36,109 nucleotides of DNA from positions 1 through 36,109 of the forward strand of contig JAURQI010000070.1 of assembly GCA_030836155.1 (NCBI GenBank), read 5' to 3'. Each line of letters starts with the position of its first letter. Positions within the stretch are counted from its first letter, which is position 1. The notes beneath the pieces are model-generated. The model was not told the DNA's origin. It saw only the letters and a program-made list of their open reading frames with translations, and made no database searches. This stretch comes from Crocinitomix sp. Lineage in GTDB: Bacteria > Bacteroidota > Bacteroidia > Flavobacteriales_D > Crocinitomicaceae. The position numbers were made by a program, and so were the translations under genes. Below, piece after piece: positions 1 to 6,814 of this stretch.

Positions 1-285
1 ACTTGAGATATCAACCGTTACAATTAGGTATTCCTTTCCATTAAGATTATAAGCTTCAAAATCATTCGCCGTATCACCTAAACCACGACCATTTTCAGAT
101 CGGAAGATTTGTTGATAGCCTTCCACGCCATCATAAAAACTAATCGACGCATTGTTCTGCTCAAATAAACCTTCGTTCAAGGAAAATACGCCGGATTCAT
201 ATTGACTCGGAGTAATTGGCTCAATCGGTTTTTTATTGCAGGAATAAATCGACAGAATCGATAAAAAGACAAAGAAGTTTTTCAT
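1..285 (-). CDS. BtuG/DUF5074-like surface lipoprotein, partial (3' end outside window)
   Basis: The first 95 codons are present; the gene runs off the left edge of the window. The N-terminus MKNFFVFLSILSIYSCNKK is a lipoprotein signal peptide with the lipid-bearing Cys at residue 16. It is followed by the segment YESGVFSLNEGLFEQNNAS, which resembles the start of the first blade in YncE/DUF5074-type beta-propeller lipoproteins, the group that includes the Bacteroides B12-binding protein BtuG. The start codon overlaps the stop of the TonB receptor gene as ATGA, so translation is probably coupled. Together with the upstream riboswitch this suggests a surface lid that hands cobalamin to the receptor. 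The propeller assignment rests on a short stretch because most of the gene is missing. Confidence 0.6.
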   Translation of the reverse strand, partial: MKNFFVFLSILSIYSCNKKPIEPITPSQYESGVFSLNEGLFEQNNASISFYDGVEGYQQIFRSENGRGLGDTANDFEAYNLNGKEYLIVTVDISS

Positions 286-2270
286 TTTTCTAATCGGTAT
301 TTTATTCTTAGTTGAAGATGACGTCCCGGCATGGGAAAACTACGAATAACTTGATAATTATTAGCCAAAAGATTCATGACCTTTAAGTCAATGAGCAGGT
401 TAGACGCTTTCCAACGAATCGTTTTCGAAAGTCCAATATTCAAATCAACAAAGCCTGGCAAGTAGTTGGCGTATATATTTTCATTCAGGGTATATCTAAA
501 ACCTGAAACTAAAGCTGTAGCTCCAATTTGATAACCTTTTCTAGTTAGGTGAATGCCCGCTTGTCCATTATAAAAAGGCGTGTACGGAATTTGATGACCA
601 TAAGTTAAACTATTTCGATCGGTAATGTCAACCGATTGATTAAAGGAATGACTGGTATTTACATCTAATCGGCACTTTTTTAATTGATGAGTGAATAATC
701 CGCCCATATCAAATCCTTGAATGGACGTTTCCCCAATATTTTGCATACTCCAATTAAATAGATCTTTAGTTGGGATAGCTATAATCTTATTAGAAACGTG
801 ATTATAATAACCATCAGCTGTCAATTCGATGCTTGCATTTTTGAATTGATACCCATATGTTATACCCAAATTGACCATGTGCGCATCTTCTGGTTCAAGG
901 TTGGTATTACCAATAAAATTATAGTATAAATCATTGAAAGAAGGCATTCGAAAAGAGTGCTTATAAAAGCTTCTGATACGCAGTGCTTTTTCCTTAAAAG
1001 GTAAATAGGCTATGGCTAAAAATGGTGACAAGCGTTGAAATTTTCGCCCTGATTGAACCGTATTTAAAATACTTTGATCTTTAATTAATTGTGCCGTCAG
1101 GTTTCCTTCCAAACGAAATCGACCAAGCACTGTTTTGGCTCCGAGCACTGAAATATTCGTCATTCGTTCTGGGCGAATCAATTGCGTACTACCATCTAAA
1201 GACCCATATATAATATCTGAACCAAAATAGACTTTCTCTTCTGGAAATCTAAAACTACGAGCCATCATAAATCCGCCCGTTGCAGATGCTTGGTTAAAAT
1301 CGATATCAATATAACCTAGCAAATTTTGATATTGTGGATCAAAATAACGCATGTAATTCGTTTGATATCCTCCATGTATGGTTGCTTTCCATTGTTTAAA
1401 GCTTCTAGTATACAAGGACTGAATTCGGAGCGTTTCTGTCTCTAAAGTTTGATCATTCGAACTATTGTATAAAACAGCAGCCCCCGGCAGTTCTTGCTGA
1501 TTGTTGGAATAGTTTGCACTTATATTCCATTTCGTTTGCTTATCTGAATAGCCACCAGCAAATCGGCATCGGTAGCTCAACATTTCAGTATTCTCTCGCC
1601 ATAATTCAGGCCCATCGTTTAAGTCTGGATGTTGAAAACGATAACGACCGTTTCCGTGTCTCAACATACCTTGTCCACCGGCGAAAAATCCTTTGCCGAT
1701 TGATTTCTGATAATAGGCTCCGTGCTCATAGGCATTGATGCTGGTTAGGTTGGTATACATACCTACTCTCATTTTATCCGGAGACCGCAATAATGTGGAT
1801 TGAAGTGAAATGGTATTCGCCTGGGCAAAAGAAGCTGCTGGTGCCAAATCATCTATCACAGTACCAGTAGACAGTGCAACTTTGTGCAAGCCAAATAATT
1901 CAAAATCTGATAAGTTAACAGCTCCCGTTCTCACAGCGGACATAGCAAAACCATCCGTCACTACACTTGTATGTGCAGCGCTCAGGCTTCTGAAAGCGAT
2001 TGTTTTGACTCCTCCAATTCCTCCGTAATCTCGAATTTGTACTCCGGGTAATATTTTTACAAGTTCTCCTACATCAACAGCTCCCCATTCATCCACCTGT
2101 TTTTGGTTAATTTCAAAATGAGGCACTGAAGAACGAATTTGAATCCACGTCGCTATGGTATCACCTTTTGCAAAAACAGGAATAGCGCTGAGATGACGGG
2201 TCGTATCTTGCGAAAGGCCTCGCGCCATGAAACTTAAAAACATTAACGTTATGGTTATTCGAATGATCAC
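282..2270 (-). CDS. btuB: BtuB-like TonB-dependent outer membrane receptor, probably for cobalamin
   Basis: A 662-residue outer membrane receptor. Residues 1-20 form a signal peptide ending SMAxxxSQ-like (FMARGLSQ). A plug domain follows at about residues 45-150 (ELVKILPGVQIRDYGGIGG, later SVVTDGF), and the rest is a beta-barrel with alternating aromatic and polar strands, ending in LQLRIKYRLEK. There is no carboxypeptidase-regulatory-like N-terminal domain, and the length is usual for BtuB/FecA-type transporters of small ligands. It is the second gene after the cobalamin riboswitch, 19 bases from the preceding gene, and overlaps the downstream lipoprotein start. Family knowledge plus the riboswitch supports vitamin B12 or another corrinoid as the substrate; the sequence alone shows only a TonB receptor. 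Confidence 0.85.
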   Translation of the reverse strand: MIIRITITLMFLSFMARGLSQDTTRHLSAIPVFAKGDTIATWIQIRSSVPHFEINQKQVDEWGAVDVGELVKILPGVQIRDYGGIGGVKTIAFRSLSAAHTSVVTDGFAMSAVRTGAVNLSDFELFGLHKVALSTGTVIDDLAPAASFAQANTISLQSTLLRSPDKMRVGMYTNLTSINAYEHGAYYQKSIGKGFFAGGQGMLRHGNGRYRFQHPDLNDGPELWRENTEMLSYRCRFAGGYSDKQTKWNISANYSNNQQELPGAAVLYNSSNDQTLETETLRIQSLYTRSFKQWKATIHGGYQTNYMRYFDPQYQNLLGYIDIDFNQASATGGFMMARSFRFPEEKVYFGSDIIYGSLDGSTQLIRPERMTNISVLGAKTVLGRFRLEGNLTAQLIKDQSILNTVQSGRKFQRLSPFLAIAYLPFKEKALRIRSFYKHSFRMPSFNDLYYNFIGNTNLEPEDAHMVNLGITYGYQFKNASIELTADGYYNHVSNKIIAIPTKDLFNWSMQNIGETSIQGFDMGGLFTHQLKKCRLDVNTSHSFNQSVDITDRNSLTYGHQIPYTPFYNGQAGIHLTRKGYQIGATALVSGFRYTLNENIYANYLPGFVDLNIGLSKTIRWKASNLLIDLKVMNLLANNYQVIRSFPMPGRHLQLRIKYRLEK

Positions 2271-2289: not shown

Positions 2290-3834
2290 CTATTTAATAA
2301 GAATTAGCTGGGACTGCATGCGCTCATTTGTCTCGACGGATAAAAGATAGGTTCCTTTAGCAAGATTTGTCAATTGCATACTTTGCACTCCTGCTACAAA
2401 TCGATTTTTAGTGACTACATTGCCCTGCACATCTGAAATGGTCACGGTGGCATCTTGCTTTAGATCTATTTGAAACTCACCATTAGATGGATTCGGGTAT
2501 ACCGTAAGCTCATCTTGAATTACTTCTTCAAAACCAAAAGCATAAGGGCCATTCATTGGCAAGCTTGGTGGTGTTGCCGCCCCCCAAGAAGTGTAACTGC
2601 AAGCGAACCAATCGCCATTATGAAGCTCTTCACTAATACCCGAATTTAAAACCCAGCCTCCAACATTGTCAGCTGACCATGTCGACCAATAATTTGGAGC
2701 TCCTCCGAGTCCAATATCGCCCGTTATTTCGCACTCTACACTATTCAAAAAACCACCCATTAGGTCAAAAGTCAAACCATAAATACCATCATCTTGCAAT
2801 GCCTCTAACACCTCTTCCGCAGTGATAGTTTCACCTTCAAACAAATATCCATAAGCGTAAGAATGTCCTGGTAACCACTCATTATAATCAATAACAATAA
2901 CCACTTCCTTTGAACCGGAGCCGATAACAAACTCAGTGTCAAAATGTGTAAAAGCGGCCGAATCTAATGCAGAAATAGGATAAAAAGGTCTTCTCGGAGG
3001 CCAAGAAGCATAGGAGCATCCAAACCAATCACCGTCAACAATCGTAGTTAACAAACCGGCATTCATCGTCCAATCTGATAAGTTCGTTCCGCTCCATGTA
3101 GCCCAATAATGCGGATCGCCAGCTAAACCTTGTAAATCGTTGAAGAGAATATCATTTAAAAACGCTTCTGCATTGATCGTAAGATTTACATCAGCAGATG
3201 CAATATCTGCAAGCATTGTCGCTCCGTCTGTAGTTCCGTCAAAAGCATATCCCCATGCATAAGTCATGGCTTGTCCAGACTCGCTTTCTACAAAATCTAT
3301 AACAAATACTGCTGAATCTGATCCCTCACCAACCCAAAATTGAACGATACCATCATGATACCTAGCCGATTCATAAGCAGCTAATGGATCGCCGGGTGCA
3401 ATTTCAGGATCAAAATCGGTATAAGAACACCCGAACCAATCACCGTGTTCTACCAAAGTTGCTAGTCCTCCATTCAAGACCCATTCCGTCTCCTCTGTCT
3501 TACTCCAAGTACCCCAAAAATCTGGATCTCCAACAAGTCCAGCATGATTATTATAATGGATTTCGTTCAAGAATCCTCCTTCAATAATTACATCTAATTT
3601 TTCTTCGTCTGCAGCAATAGCTGCCAAGATATCGCCACCAGAGACGTCAAGCGCATCATCAAAAAGAAAGCCCCAAACATAAGCCGAGTCTTCAGTTGCG
3701 TCCAAGAAATCGATTTCTAAATAAGCAGTGTCGGGCCCTTCGCCAACAAAGTACACCACATCATCCGATGTAAACTGAGCGCTACTAAAAAAAGCGCTAA
3801 GCGCCAATGCGCCTGTGAGTATTAATTTTCTCAT
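2290..3834 (-). CDS. T9SS-secreted protein with three transcobalamin C-domain-like repeats
   Basis: A 514-residue secreted protein and the first gene behind the cobalamin riboswitch. A signal peptide (residues 1-19, ending FFSSAQ) is followed by three repeats at about 26-138, 164-275 and 301-414. Each carries a strand of the type V.VIDF/DYN, then YxWGYxFDG, a short helix (GATMLADI, AEEVLEAL), GGFLN, then YWxTWS, W.LN.GL and GDWFGCSY. The order helix, G.(F)LNsI, YW, W..N.G and GDW...Y resembles the DUF4430/transcobalamin C-terminal domain fold that contacts cobalamin in animal carriers. Residues 440-514 are a type A sorting domain (VYPNPSNGEF...GTYLLSV...LILIK), so the T9SS should place it on the cell surface or in the medium. 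I infer that it binds B12; the similarity is from memory and unverified. Confidence 0.8.
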   Translation of the reverse strand: MRKLILTGALALSAFFSSAQFTSDDVVYFVGEGPDTAYLEIDFLDATEDSAYVWGFLFDDALDVSGGDILAAIAADEEKLDVIIEGGFLNEIHYNNHAGLVGDPDFWGTWSKTEETEWVLNGGLATLVEHGDWFGCSYTDFDPEIAPGDPLAAYESARYHDGIVQFWVGEGSDSAVFVIDFVESESGQAMTYAWGYAFDGTTDGATMLADIASADVNLTINAEAFLNDILFNDLQGLAGDPHYWATWSGTNLSDWTMNAGLLTTIVDGDWFGCSYASWPPRRPFYPISALDSAAFTHFDTEFVIGSGSKEVVIVIDYNEWLPGHSYAYGYLFEGETITAEEVLEALQDDGIYGLTFDLMGGFLNSVECEITGDIGLGGAPNYWSTWSADNVGGWVLNSGISEELHNGDWFACSYTSWGAATPPSLPMNGPYAFGFEEVIQDELTVYPNPSNGEFQIDLKQDATVTISDVQGNVVTKNRFVAGVQSMQLTNLAKGTYLLSVETNERMQSQLILIK

Positions 3835-3959
3835 CCTTTTTATTTTAAGGTCAAATGCATGACCATCAGTTAAAAAAAGGAATAGAAACGCAGAATAAGA
3901 AAGAGGTGAAACCCCGACTTAAACTTTGCTTTTATCCCGAAAGCGTTGTTTGTGAAAAA

Positions 3960-4124
3960 TGGCAGGTCTTCTGACTCACTCCGTGCTTTGCGCCCTTCCC
4001 ATCAAATCTTGATATTGACAGTGGTTTTTACACAAAGTTTTGAAGCTTACAGCTGCGGGAACAGTTCAGGAATTGCCTTTGGGCGCACCTGATTCCCATT
4101 TTAATTCCGTACAAACGGAAACCA
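3960..4124 (-). promoter_or_regulatory. Cobalamin (B12) riboswitch
   Basis: On the minus strand this stretch carries the conserved blocks of the cobalamin riboswitch in order: GGTTTCCG, GGGAATCAGGTG, GAACTGTTCCCGCAGCTGTAA, CCACTG, GGGAAGG, and the B12 box AGTCAGAAGACCTGCC at 3961-3976. It lies about 125 bases before the start of the triple-repeat secreted protein. In this class adenosylcobalamin binding shuts off expression of uptake genes, so the three downstream genes should be repressed when B12 is plentiful. This riboswitch fills most of the 362-base gap between 3835 and 4196. A TAnnTTTA-type -10 candidate lies at 4135-4142, but no clear -33 TTTG accompanies it. Confidence 0.95.
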
Positions 4125-4196
4125 AAATTCAGGGTAAAGATAGAATAAAAAGATGAAAGGAGGTTTGTTGGGTTTTCCAACTAGTATTATCTATAA

Positions 4197-6401: not shown

Positions 6402-6433
6402 AAAAAAATCCCTTCAGACAAAGCTGAAGGGAT
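6402..6433 (-). terminator. Rho-independent terminator of rnpB
   Basis: On the minus strand ATCCCTTCAGC, a TTTG-containing loop and the complementary TCTGAAGGGAT form a stem that is followed by a run of seven T. It lies immediately after the 3' end of RNase P RNA. Confidence 0.9.
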
Positions 6434-6808
6434 AAAACGTATAAGCCGGGTTCTGTCCTTCGCAAACGCGAAGTTCCTGTCATTTATCTAGTCCACAATT
6501 CACATTGAGGATCAATCCATCTACCCTCCGAGATCAACCGAACAAGTCTCAAGCCTCGGTTTACATGATGTTTCAACGCATGAGGTTTACACGGCTGCCA
6601 CTGTTGCCAATGACACCGGTGAGCTCTTACCTCACCTTTTCACCCTTACTTTCAATGAATTGAAAGCGGTTATTCTCTGCTGCACTAGCTGTATTTTGAC
6701 GAATCAAAACCCTTCCCGTTAGGAAGCATGCTGTTCTGTGTTGCCCGGACTTTCCTCTCCCGTTCGCTTACCAAAAGGCAAAGCAAATCGGGAGCGACAG
6801 GACCGTTT
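6434..6808 (-). ncRNA. rnpB: RNase P RNA, bacterial type A
   Basis: The catalytic RNA that cuts 5' leaders from tRNA precursors. On the minus strand the 5' part holds the universal block GAGGAAAGTCCGGGC, and the 3' part ends in ACAGAACCCGGCTTAT, the usual terminal signature. AAACG near the 5' end can pair with CGTTT at the 3' end to close helix P1, which sets the ends to within a few bases. The gene fills the gap between the HEAT-repeat gene and the T9SS gene at 6837 and has its own -10 element (TATCTTTG) and a strong terminator. Confidence 0.96.
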
Positions 6809-6814
6809 AATCGC

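Follow-up and report, generated by a model that had tools for sequence, protein, structure and literature searches.

A secreted repeat protein encoded behind a cobalamin riboswitch in Crocinitomix sp. (Crocinitomicaceae, Flavobacteriales) probably belongs to a family of surface catchers of vitamin B12 or related cobamides. The 514-residue protein lies within a 36,109-nucleotide stretch of contig JAURQI010000070.1 (positions 1 to 36,109, hereafter the window). Its tandem repeats are predicted to adopt the fold of the transcobalamin beta domain, its C terminus is predicted to direct delivery by the type IX secretion system (T9SS), and the captured ligand would probably be passed to a BtuG-like lipoprotein and a BtuB-like receptor of the same operon. 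Two independent lines favor a B12 role, namely the match of the predicted fold to B12 carriers and the setting of the gene among B12 functions; cobamide binding by the repeats themselves is likely. The features of the locus are as follows.

3944..4141, minus strand: cobalamin riboswitch aptamer, RF00174 (cmscan 102.9 bits, gathering score 31.5, model positions 1–189)
3829..3885, minus strand: hairpin stretch, candidate expression platform (minimum free energy −16.5 kcal/mol, z −4.44)
2290..3834, minus strand: open reading frame for the 514-residue secreted repeat protein, with three transcobalamin-beta-like repeats and a T9SS tail
3367..3774, minus strand: repeat 1, residues 21–156 (repeat alignments)
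2959..3366, minus strand: repeat 2, residues 157–292, modeled singly (AlphaFold2, Foldseek)
2533..2958, minus strand: repeat 3, residues 293–434 (repeat alignments)
2308..2502, minus strand: T9SS type A sorting domain, residues 445–509 (PF18962 and TIGR04183 above cut-off)
282..2270, minus strand: BtuB-like TonB-dependent receptor, 662 residues (PF00593 and PF07715 above cut-off)
1..285, minus strand: start of the BtuG-like lipoprotein gene, which the contig end cuts (DUF5074, 8blw_B; complete copy on contig C65)

A three-repeat protein with a T9SS sorting domain

The repeat protein comprises a signal peptide (assigned by eye), three repeats of ~115 residues, and a type A sorting domain detected above cut-off by two models (PF18962, 46.4 bits versus 27, E 5.1e-12; TIGR04183, 41.5 versus 23). 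Repeat 2 shares 41% identity with repeat 1 and 34% with repeat 3, and pairwise repeat alignments scored 203–281, as compared to a maximum of 73 upon shuffling (500 shuffles each). The repeats matched no Pfam model above cut-off, and NCBIfam likewise yielded none for them. The T9SS component SprA is present in the genome (TIGR04189, 2398 bits), and the sorting domain together with this secretion system marks the protein as a predicted T9SS cargo. T9SS removes the tail of its cargo, which is then anchored or released. A first-pass annotation, made from the sequence alone, had described a clear cobalamin riboswitch leading a gene for a 514-residue T9SS cargo with three repeats, a description borne out by the riboswitch score, the open reading frame, the sorting domain, and the repeat scores. 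One repeat had been placed at residues 164–275; the repeat is real, with true bounds slightly wider than these.

Predicted fold of the repeat

Repeat 2, modeled by AlphaFold2 from an alignment of 64 repeats, gave a predicted local distance difference test score (pLDDT) of 88.9 and a predicted template modeling score (pTM) of 0.86, and the full-length protein gave 83.3 and 0.68, respectively. The repeat model contains strands at residues 17–26 and 33–42, a helix at 48–58, a hairpin (62–66/70–75), and strands at 86–93 and 114–120, corresponding to a predicted beta-grasp with a beta-hairpin inserted after the helix. This order equals the strand-strand-helix-hairpin-strands printed for the beta domain of rat transcobalamin (PMC11107200). 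Comparison of the model to 350,542 PDB chains by Foldseek returned 160 matches at E ≤ 10, of which the best 50 are considered here. Ranks 1–14 were occupied by transcobalamin and intrinsic factor only (probability 0.90–1.00, E 0.0075–0.16), with 4zrp_A as the best match (E 0.0075, probability 1.00). The human beta domain on its own (5np4) matched at E 0.032 with a template modeling (TM) score of 0.58 by its own length, and intrinsic factor (2pmv_A) aligned with a TM-score of 0.58 by query at a root-mean-square deviation of 3.6. Rank 15 was streptokinase at probability 0.14, and other beta-grasp folds (USP7 ubiquitin-like, SSL, and DWNN) reached at most 0.35 among the best 50 of 160. Both the element order and the top 14 matches agree with what the first-pass annotation expected of a structure prediction for one repeat.

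The most conserved motifs of the repeat are the hairpin tip GGFLND, YW-TWS, and W--N-G, and among 64 repeats F69 and L70 are each kept in 59, W88 in 64, and N102 in 61. In rat transcobalamin, strands 3′ to 7′ and loop 7′–8′ are described as anchored by the ligand (PMC11107200). Many of the top-conserved repeat positions occupy this ligand-holding part, i.e., the hairpin tip and the strands that follow it, a likeness by region and not contact residue by residue. The beta domains of 5np4, 4zrp, and 2pmv thus share with the repeat protein a predicted hairpin-after-helix beta-grasp, secretion, and a B12 setting, whereas the bacterial protein differs in sequence (8–13% identity across ranks 1–14), tandem copies, a T9SS tail, and a bacterial outer-membrane operon.

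Linkage to cobalamin riboswitches and transport genes

Two short patterns, scanned against the genomes of 84,980 species, identified at least 23 loci encoding the repeat. Crocinitomix catalasitica ATCC 23190 and C. algicola are among the carriers. A cobalamin riboswitch lies directly upstream on the same strand in all 23, at 112–474 nucleotides before the first repeat. Partner genes were counted at any place in a locus where blastp gave E ≤ 1e-3; a BtuB-like gene was present in 18 of 23 loci, a BtuG-like gene in 16, and the third gene of the operon in 18. Co-occurrence of the repeat with the riboswitch, a check proposed in the first-pass annotation, is therefore found in every locus, mostly near BtuB/BtuG genes. 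Among the five loci lacking a BtuB-like gene, the sequence ends at the repeat gene in L039 and L044 and within an 88-residue open frame resembling a receptor start in L040; L037 and L042 are weighed below. No BtuG-like gene was detected in L039, L040, L042–L044, L046, or L048, and no third gene in L039, L044, L045, L047, or L050. In a further locus, L064, a riboswitch likewise immediately precedes the gene; L098 represents the same gene as L050, and the sequence of L099 begins inside the repeat gene, leaving the upstream region uncovered. Counting the host genome each time, matches were found in 13 of 199 related genomes with the repeat protein as query, in 14 of 399 genomes of the order with profile A3, and in 8 of 395 genomes of the phylum with profile A1.

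Relatives carry one (L050), two, three, or four repeats per protein, and the repeat gene of L044 is interrupted by runs of N. Across 15 three-repeat proteins, that of the window included, the nearest counterpart of a repeat in another protein occupied the matching position in 525 of 630 comparisons, which argues that the triplication is probably old and that its copies have been kept distinct. By eye, the four-repeat proteins of L046 and L048 alternate, with repeats 2 and 4 typical and repeats 1 and 3 altered in the hairpin motif; the YW motif of repeat 3 is altered in both as well. A 72-residue remnant of the repeat gene was observed in genome G628 (L100:1441-1659) between the receptor gene and the third operon gene, and the domain seems to have been lost there while the operon persists. 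No riboswitch was detected in the 3 kb of this locus, the upstream end of which falls inside the receptor gene.

In six genomes of the same class (L057–L061 and L063; e.g., L059:8717-10990), a protein of ~750 residues combines, in order, a divergent copy of the repeat domain, a DUF5074 propeller (E 1.6e-120 to 3.5e-112), and a T9SS tail that scores above cut-off in all six. The divergent domain matches the repeat profile from position 1 to 54–57 (E 2e-13 to 5e-12), and profile–profile comparison to the repeats by hhalign gave E 5e-16 over 119 columns. A seventh genome (L062) encodes the divergent domain alone behind a lipoprotein-like start, as judged by eye. A same-strand riboswitch lies upstream in six of these seven loci (five of the six fusions), the contig of L061 ending ~1.35 kb upstream. 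From the riboswitch onward, the genes of L059 encode a TonB receptor, a DUF5074 protein, another small protein, and the fusion, in this order. The joining of the divergent domain to the propeller is reminiscent of BtuG1 from Bacteroides thetaiotaomicron, in which BtuG is fused to a BtuH domain (PMC10404256).

Proposed route of B12 capture and competing explanations

In the proposed route, a fall in internal B12 would cause the riboswitch to cease hiding the ribosome site, and the operon would be translated. The signal peptide would carry the repeat protein across the inner membrane, and T9SS, a step proposed because of the sorting tail and SprA, would carry it across the outer membrane, remove the tail, and anchor or release the protein. 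Each repeat would fold as the beta-grasp domain by which transcobalamin and intrinsic factor grip one face of the B12 molecule; probably it would either bind a cobamide alone or close over one molecule together with a second repeat or a BtuG-like propeller. Tandem copies would raise capture and avidity. At the cell surface or in released form, the protein would then hand its cobamide over to BtuG for import by BtuB. Even by itself the human beta domain binds B12, with which it has been co-crystallized, and separation of the domains lowered affinity (PMC5599065), so that a protein without an alpha domain could catch B12 via single domains. In B. thetaiotaomicron, B12 binders that are not part of the transporter, BtuH among them, have been suggested to load BtuG, which forms a lid on BtuB (PMC10404256); by analogy, the same relay may operate here with T9SS export replacing the lipid anchor.

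Several results weigh against a transcobalamin-like B12 catcher. No repeat matched PF14478 (DUF4430; cut-off 23.8 bits) at E ≤ 10 among the 64 examined, and hhalign comparison of the repeats to ten DUF4430 sequences, although in the expected register over 48 columns, gave P 0.089 and a probability of 0.6%. Profile searches of PDB sequences returned weak unrelated matches only (best E 0.51 and 0.11), and phmmer gave no lead to the fold either; structure comparison alone reached the fold and all sequence routes failed. Within the structural comparison, no match of the repeat among 350,542 chains reached E ≤ 0.001, TM-scores by query for ranks 1–14 were 0.41–0.58, and the conserved-position likeness is regional, as noted above. 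A search with the full-length model placed transcobalamin at ranks 21 and 27 among the best 50 matches, behind T9SS-tail and multi-domain Ig/FN3-type matches, some of high probability and low TM-score. Animal transcobalamin and intrinsic factor join an alpha/alpha toroid to the beta domain, whereas the repeat protein consists of repeats and a T9SS tail, and its model contains no helical domain equivalent to the alpha domain. In L037 and L042, the sequence continues, yet no BtuB-like gene was detected. Finally, CbiC had no match in the host genome, which suggests a need for external B12 and so speaks for a catcher, yet this is weak evidence because the genome is 94% complete.

The most probable alternative, held to be appreciably less likely than the proposed route, is that the ligand is corrinoid-related, i.e., cobinamide, another cobamide, a degraded corrin, or heme/porphyrin. 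The cobalamin riboswitch class senses cobamides generally, a breadth that would accommodate such a ligand. The human beta domain also binds cobinamide (PMC5599065), and the authors describing the transcobalamin-like clade of SLBB allow for diverse ligands within it (PMC1796856). The observations make no distinction among cobamides; heme is disfavored by the riboswitch and the BtuG homologue.

It is improbable that the repeats share only general beta-grasp architecture and perform another job, such as docking to BtuB/BtuG, shaping the surface, or aiding vesicle release. The missing sequence link to DUF4430 and the modest Foldseek E-values would fit such a role, as would the precedent of BtuL and BtuK2, proteins of B12 operons that showed no B12 binding (PMC12751083); for BtuL in B. 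thetaiotaomicron, a role in vesicle release has been proposed. The low probabilities of other beta-grasp folds speak against this explanation, as do the two independent lines of evidence for B12 set out at the beginning.

Comparably doubtful is the idea that the repeat protein is a counterpart, perhaps a distant homologue, of BtuK. BtuK is encoded first in operon 1 of B. thetaiotaomicron, and BtuK1 binds B12 (PMC12751083); the repeat protein occupies a similar place, first behind the riboswitch and before BtuB and BtuG. No chain named BtuK occurs among the best 50 of the 160 PDB matches, and possibly none has been deposited. It is very improbable that the protein is an ordinary adhesin or structural repeat protein exported by T9SS and sharing the riboswitch with transport genes by chance: genomes of this sort commonly encode T9SS-tailed proteins whose function is a different one or is unknown, and the window holds others as judged by eye, but riboswitch linkage in 23 of 23 loci and six BtuG-like fusions are not expected of a passenger.

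Beyond capture of B12 by this family, a broader proposal, about evenly balanced in our judgment, is that Bacteroidota possess a modular transcobalamin of their own, i.e., a T9SS-exported family of beta-domain fold, occurring as one copy, as up to four copies in a row, or joined to a propeller, that feeds BtuB–BtuG and obtains the other half of the ligand sandwich, which the alpha domain provides in animals, from a neighboring repeat or propeller. Within the literature searched, surface B12 capture in Bacteroidota is described for the gut Bacteroides lipoproteins BtuG, BtuH, BtuJ, and BtuK. If the proposed function is correct, Flavobacteriales and their relatives would add to these a family of catchers delivered by T9SS, and the fold of the animal B12 carriers would gain a Bacteroidota representative with strong linkage to B12 genes. 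Two questions would follow, namely whether a beta domain can work as a scavenger without its alpha partner and how tightly bound B12 is transferred to the importer.

Relation to DUF4430, DUF4465, and BtuG

Likeness of predicted fold to transcobalamin is claimed here; membership in DUF4430 is not, because no repeat matches PF14478 and the hhalign comparison is insignificant. The DUF4430 assignment made in the first-pass annotation is accordingly supported as to a transcobalamin-like fold but not as to the family. PF14478 had no match in the host genome, hhalign comparison of the repeats to one DUF4430 sequence found no link, and none was found for the divergent fused domain. By eye, the YW motif and the last G-D motif are similarly spaced in bacterial DUF4430 proteins and in the repeats; the repeats additionally have a GxG strand at the N terminus and a conserved stretch of proline at the C terminus. 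The DUF4430 proteins examined are mostly small, single-domain, and Gram-positive, unlike the tandem T9SS protein. DUF4430 is rare in the phylum (one of 296 genomes), and in four of nine plasmid records its gene lies beside a gene for an energy-coupling factor S component, an adenosyltransferase, or a B12-dependent reductase. The transcobalamin-like clade of SLBB was described in 2007 from animals, low-GC Gram-positives, planctomycetes, and some euryarchaea (PMC1796856).

Identity with DUF4465 (BtuJ), a B12-binding family (PMC13398666), was rejected, PF14717 matching neither the repeat protein nor any of the 64 repeats and having no match in the host genome. DUF4465/BtuJ shares with the repeat protein a B12 setting, T9SS tails, and riboswitch loci, and differs in its augmented jelly-roll fold. 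The entry IPR026444 presumably corresponds to the T9SS tail. It is carried by 229 of 824 DUF4465 proteins (PMC12751083, 2025). Three loci (L084–L086) have a cobalamin riboswitch followed by a gene for a T9SS-tailed DUF4465 protein, and in L084 and L085 a TonB receptor gene intervenes; one family of B12 binders seems to replace another between lineages. Five DUF4465 matches were obtained in all; the three loci viewed widely are not of the btuK-operon type, and their open reading frames gave no convincing match to the repeat profiles (best E 0.025, filters off). BtuG is represented here by the homologue among the operon partners and by the DUF5074 propeller fused to the divergent domain; the folds of BtuG and BtuH differ from that of the repeat, and the binding domain of BtuH is reported to have low similarity to any known structure (PMC8941943).

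No description of the repeat family was found in the open-access literature searched, subscription papers and preprints lying outside that search. The domain family, its riboswitch linkage, and the combination of parts appear new. The parts themselves are of known kinds, given transcobalamin-like bacterial proteins (2007, PMC1796856) and T9SS-tailed DUF4465 (2025, PMC12751083). The "new kind of part" seen by the first-pass annotation is thus upheld for the family and its combination and is too strong otherwise, a T9SS-tailed B12-binder family, DUF4465, having already been published.

Operon partners, leader, and host genome

The receptor scores above cut-off for the TonB barrel and plug models, and its best NCBIfam match is TIGR01779 TonB-B12 (E 8.3e-22, 77.5 bits, below the equivalog cut-off of 599.7). 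Contig C65 of the same genome opens with the end of the operon, 281 of 285 nucleotides agreeing with window positions 1–285; given the four differences, the assembly may mix variants or carry errors there. C65 carries the complete BtuG-like lipoprotein and a third, T9SS-tailed protein. The complete lipoprotein scores 52.5 bits against a DUF5074 cut-off of 27.2 and matches the PDB sequences 8blw_B (E 1.3e-37) and 8bmx_D (E 2.1e-11), which are the BtuB1G1 and BtuG2-CNCbl entries, respectively (PMC10404256). By these sequence matches it is a BtuG homologue, and together with the TonB models they agree with the BtuB-like receptor and BtuG-like lipoprotein that had been named as the next genes.

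The third operon protein (~326 residues; C65 copy at L056:1103-2101) is the one kept in 18 of the 23 loci, and Pfam gives no domain above cut-off except the T9SS tail. Its best PDB-sequence match is a weak one to residues 431–472 of 8blw_B (E 0.1). BtuG1 carries a C-terminal BtuH-like extension behind its propeller (PMC10404256), and since the match falls behind the propeller, the third protein is a candidate T9SS-exported BtuH-like binder, put forward as a lead only.

The riboswitch is full-length and its 3′ end lies 109 nucleotides ahead of the start codon of the repeat gene. In the leader hairpin, CCUUUUU pairs with AAAAAGG immediately 5′ of the AUG, and none of 200 shuffled sequences was equally stable. 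Translational control of the operon is suggested by the aptamer together with a hairpin over the ribosome site, the latter being a candidate expression platform. Among 18 folded leaders, a CYUUUU/AAAAGR stem recurs by eye in seven (window, L029–L033, and L036) with exchange of C-G for U-A among them; L038, L047, and L049 form different stems, and the hairpin is not universal, being absent from L034, L037, L039–L041, L046, and L048. These counts leave out L028, one of the 18.

The host genome contains four matches to B12-binding domains, three of them over cut-off. RNase P RNA was detected at window positions 6426–6813 on the minus strand (259.8 bits), upstream of the repeat-protein locus, and in L029, L031, L033, and L038 the same RNA likewise precedes the riboswitch by 2–6 kb.

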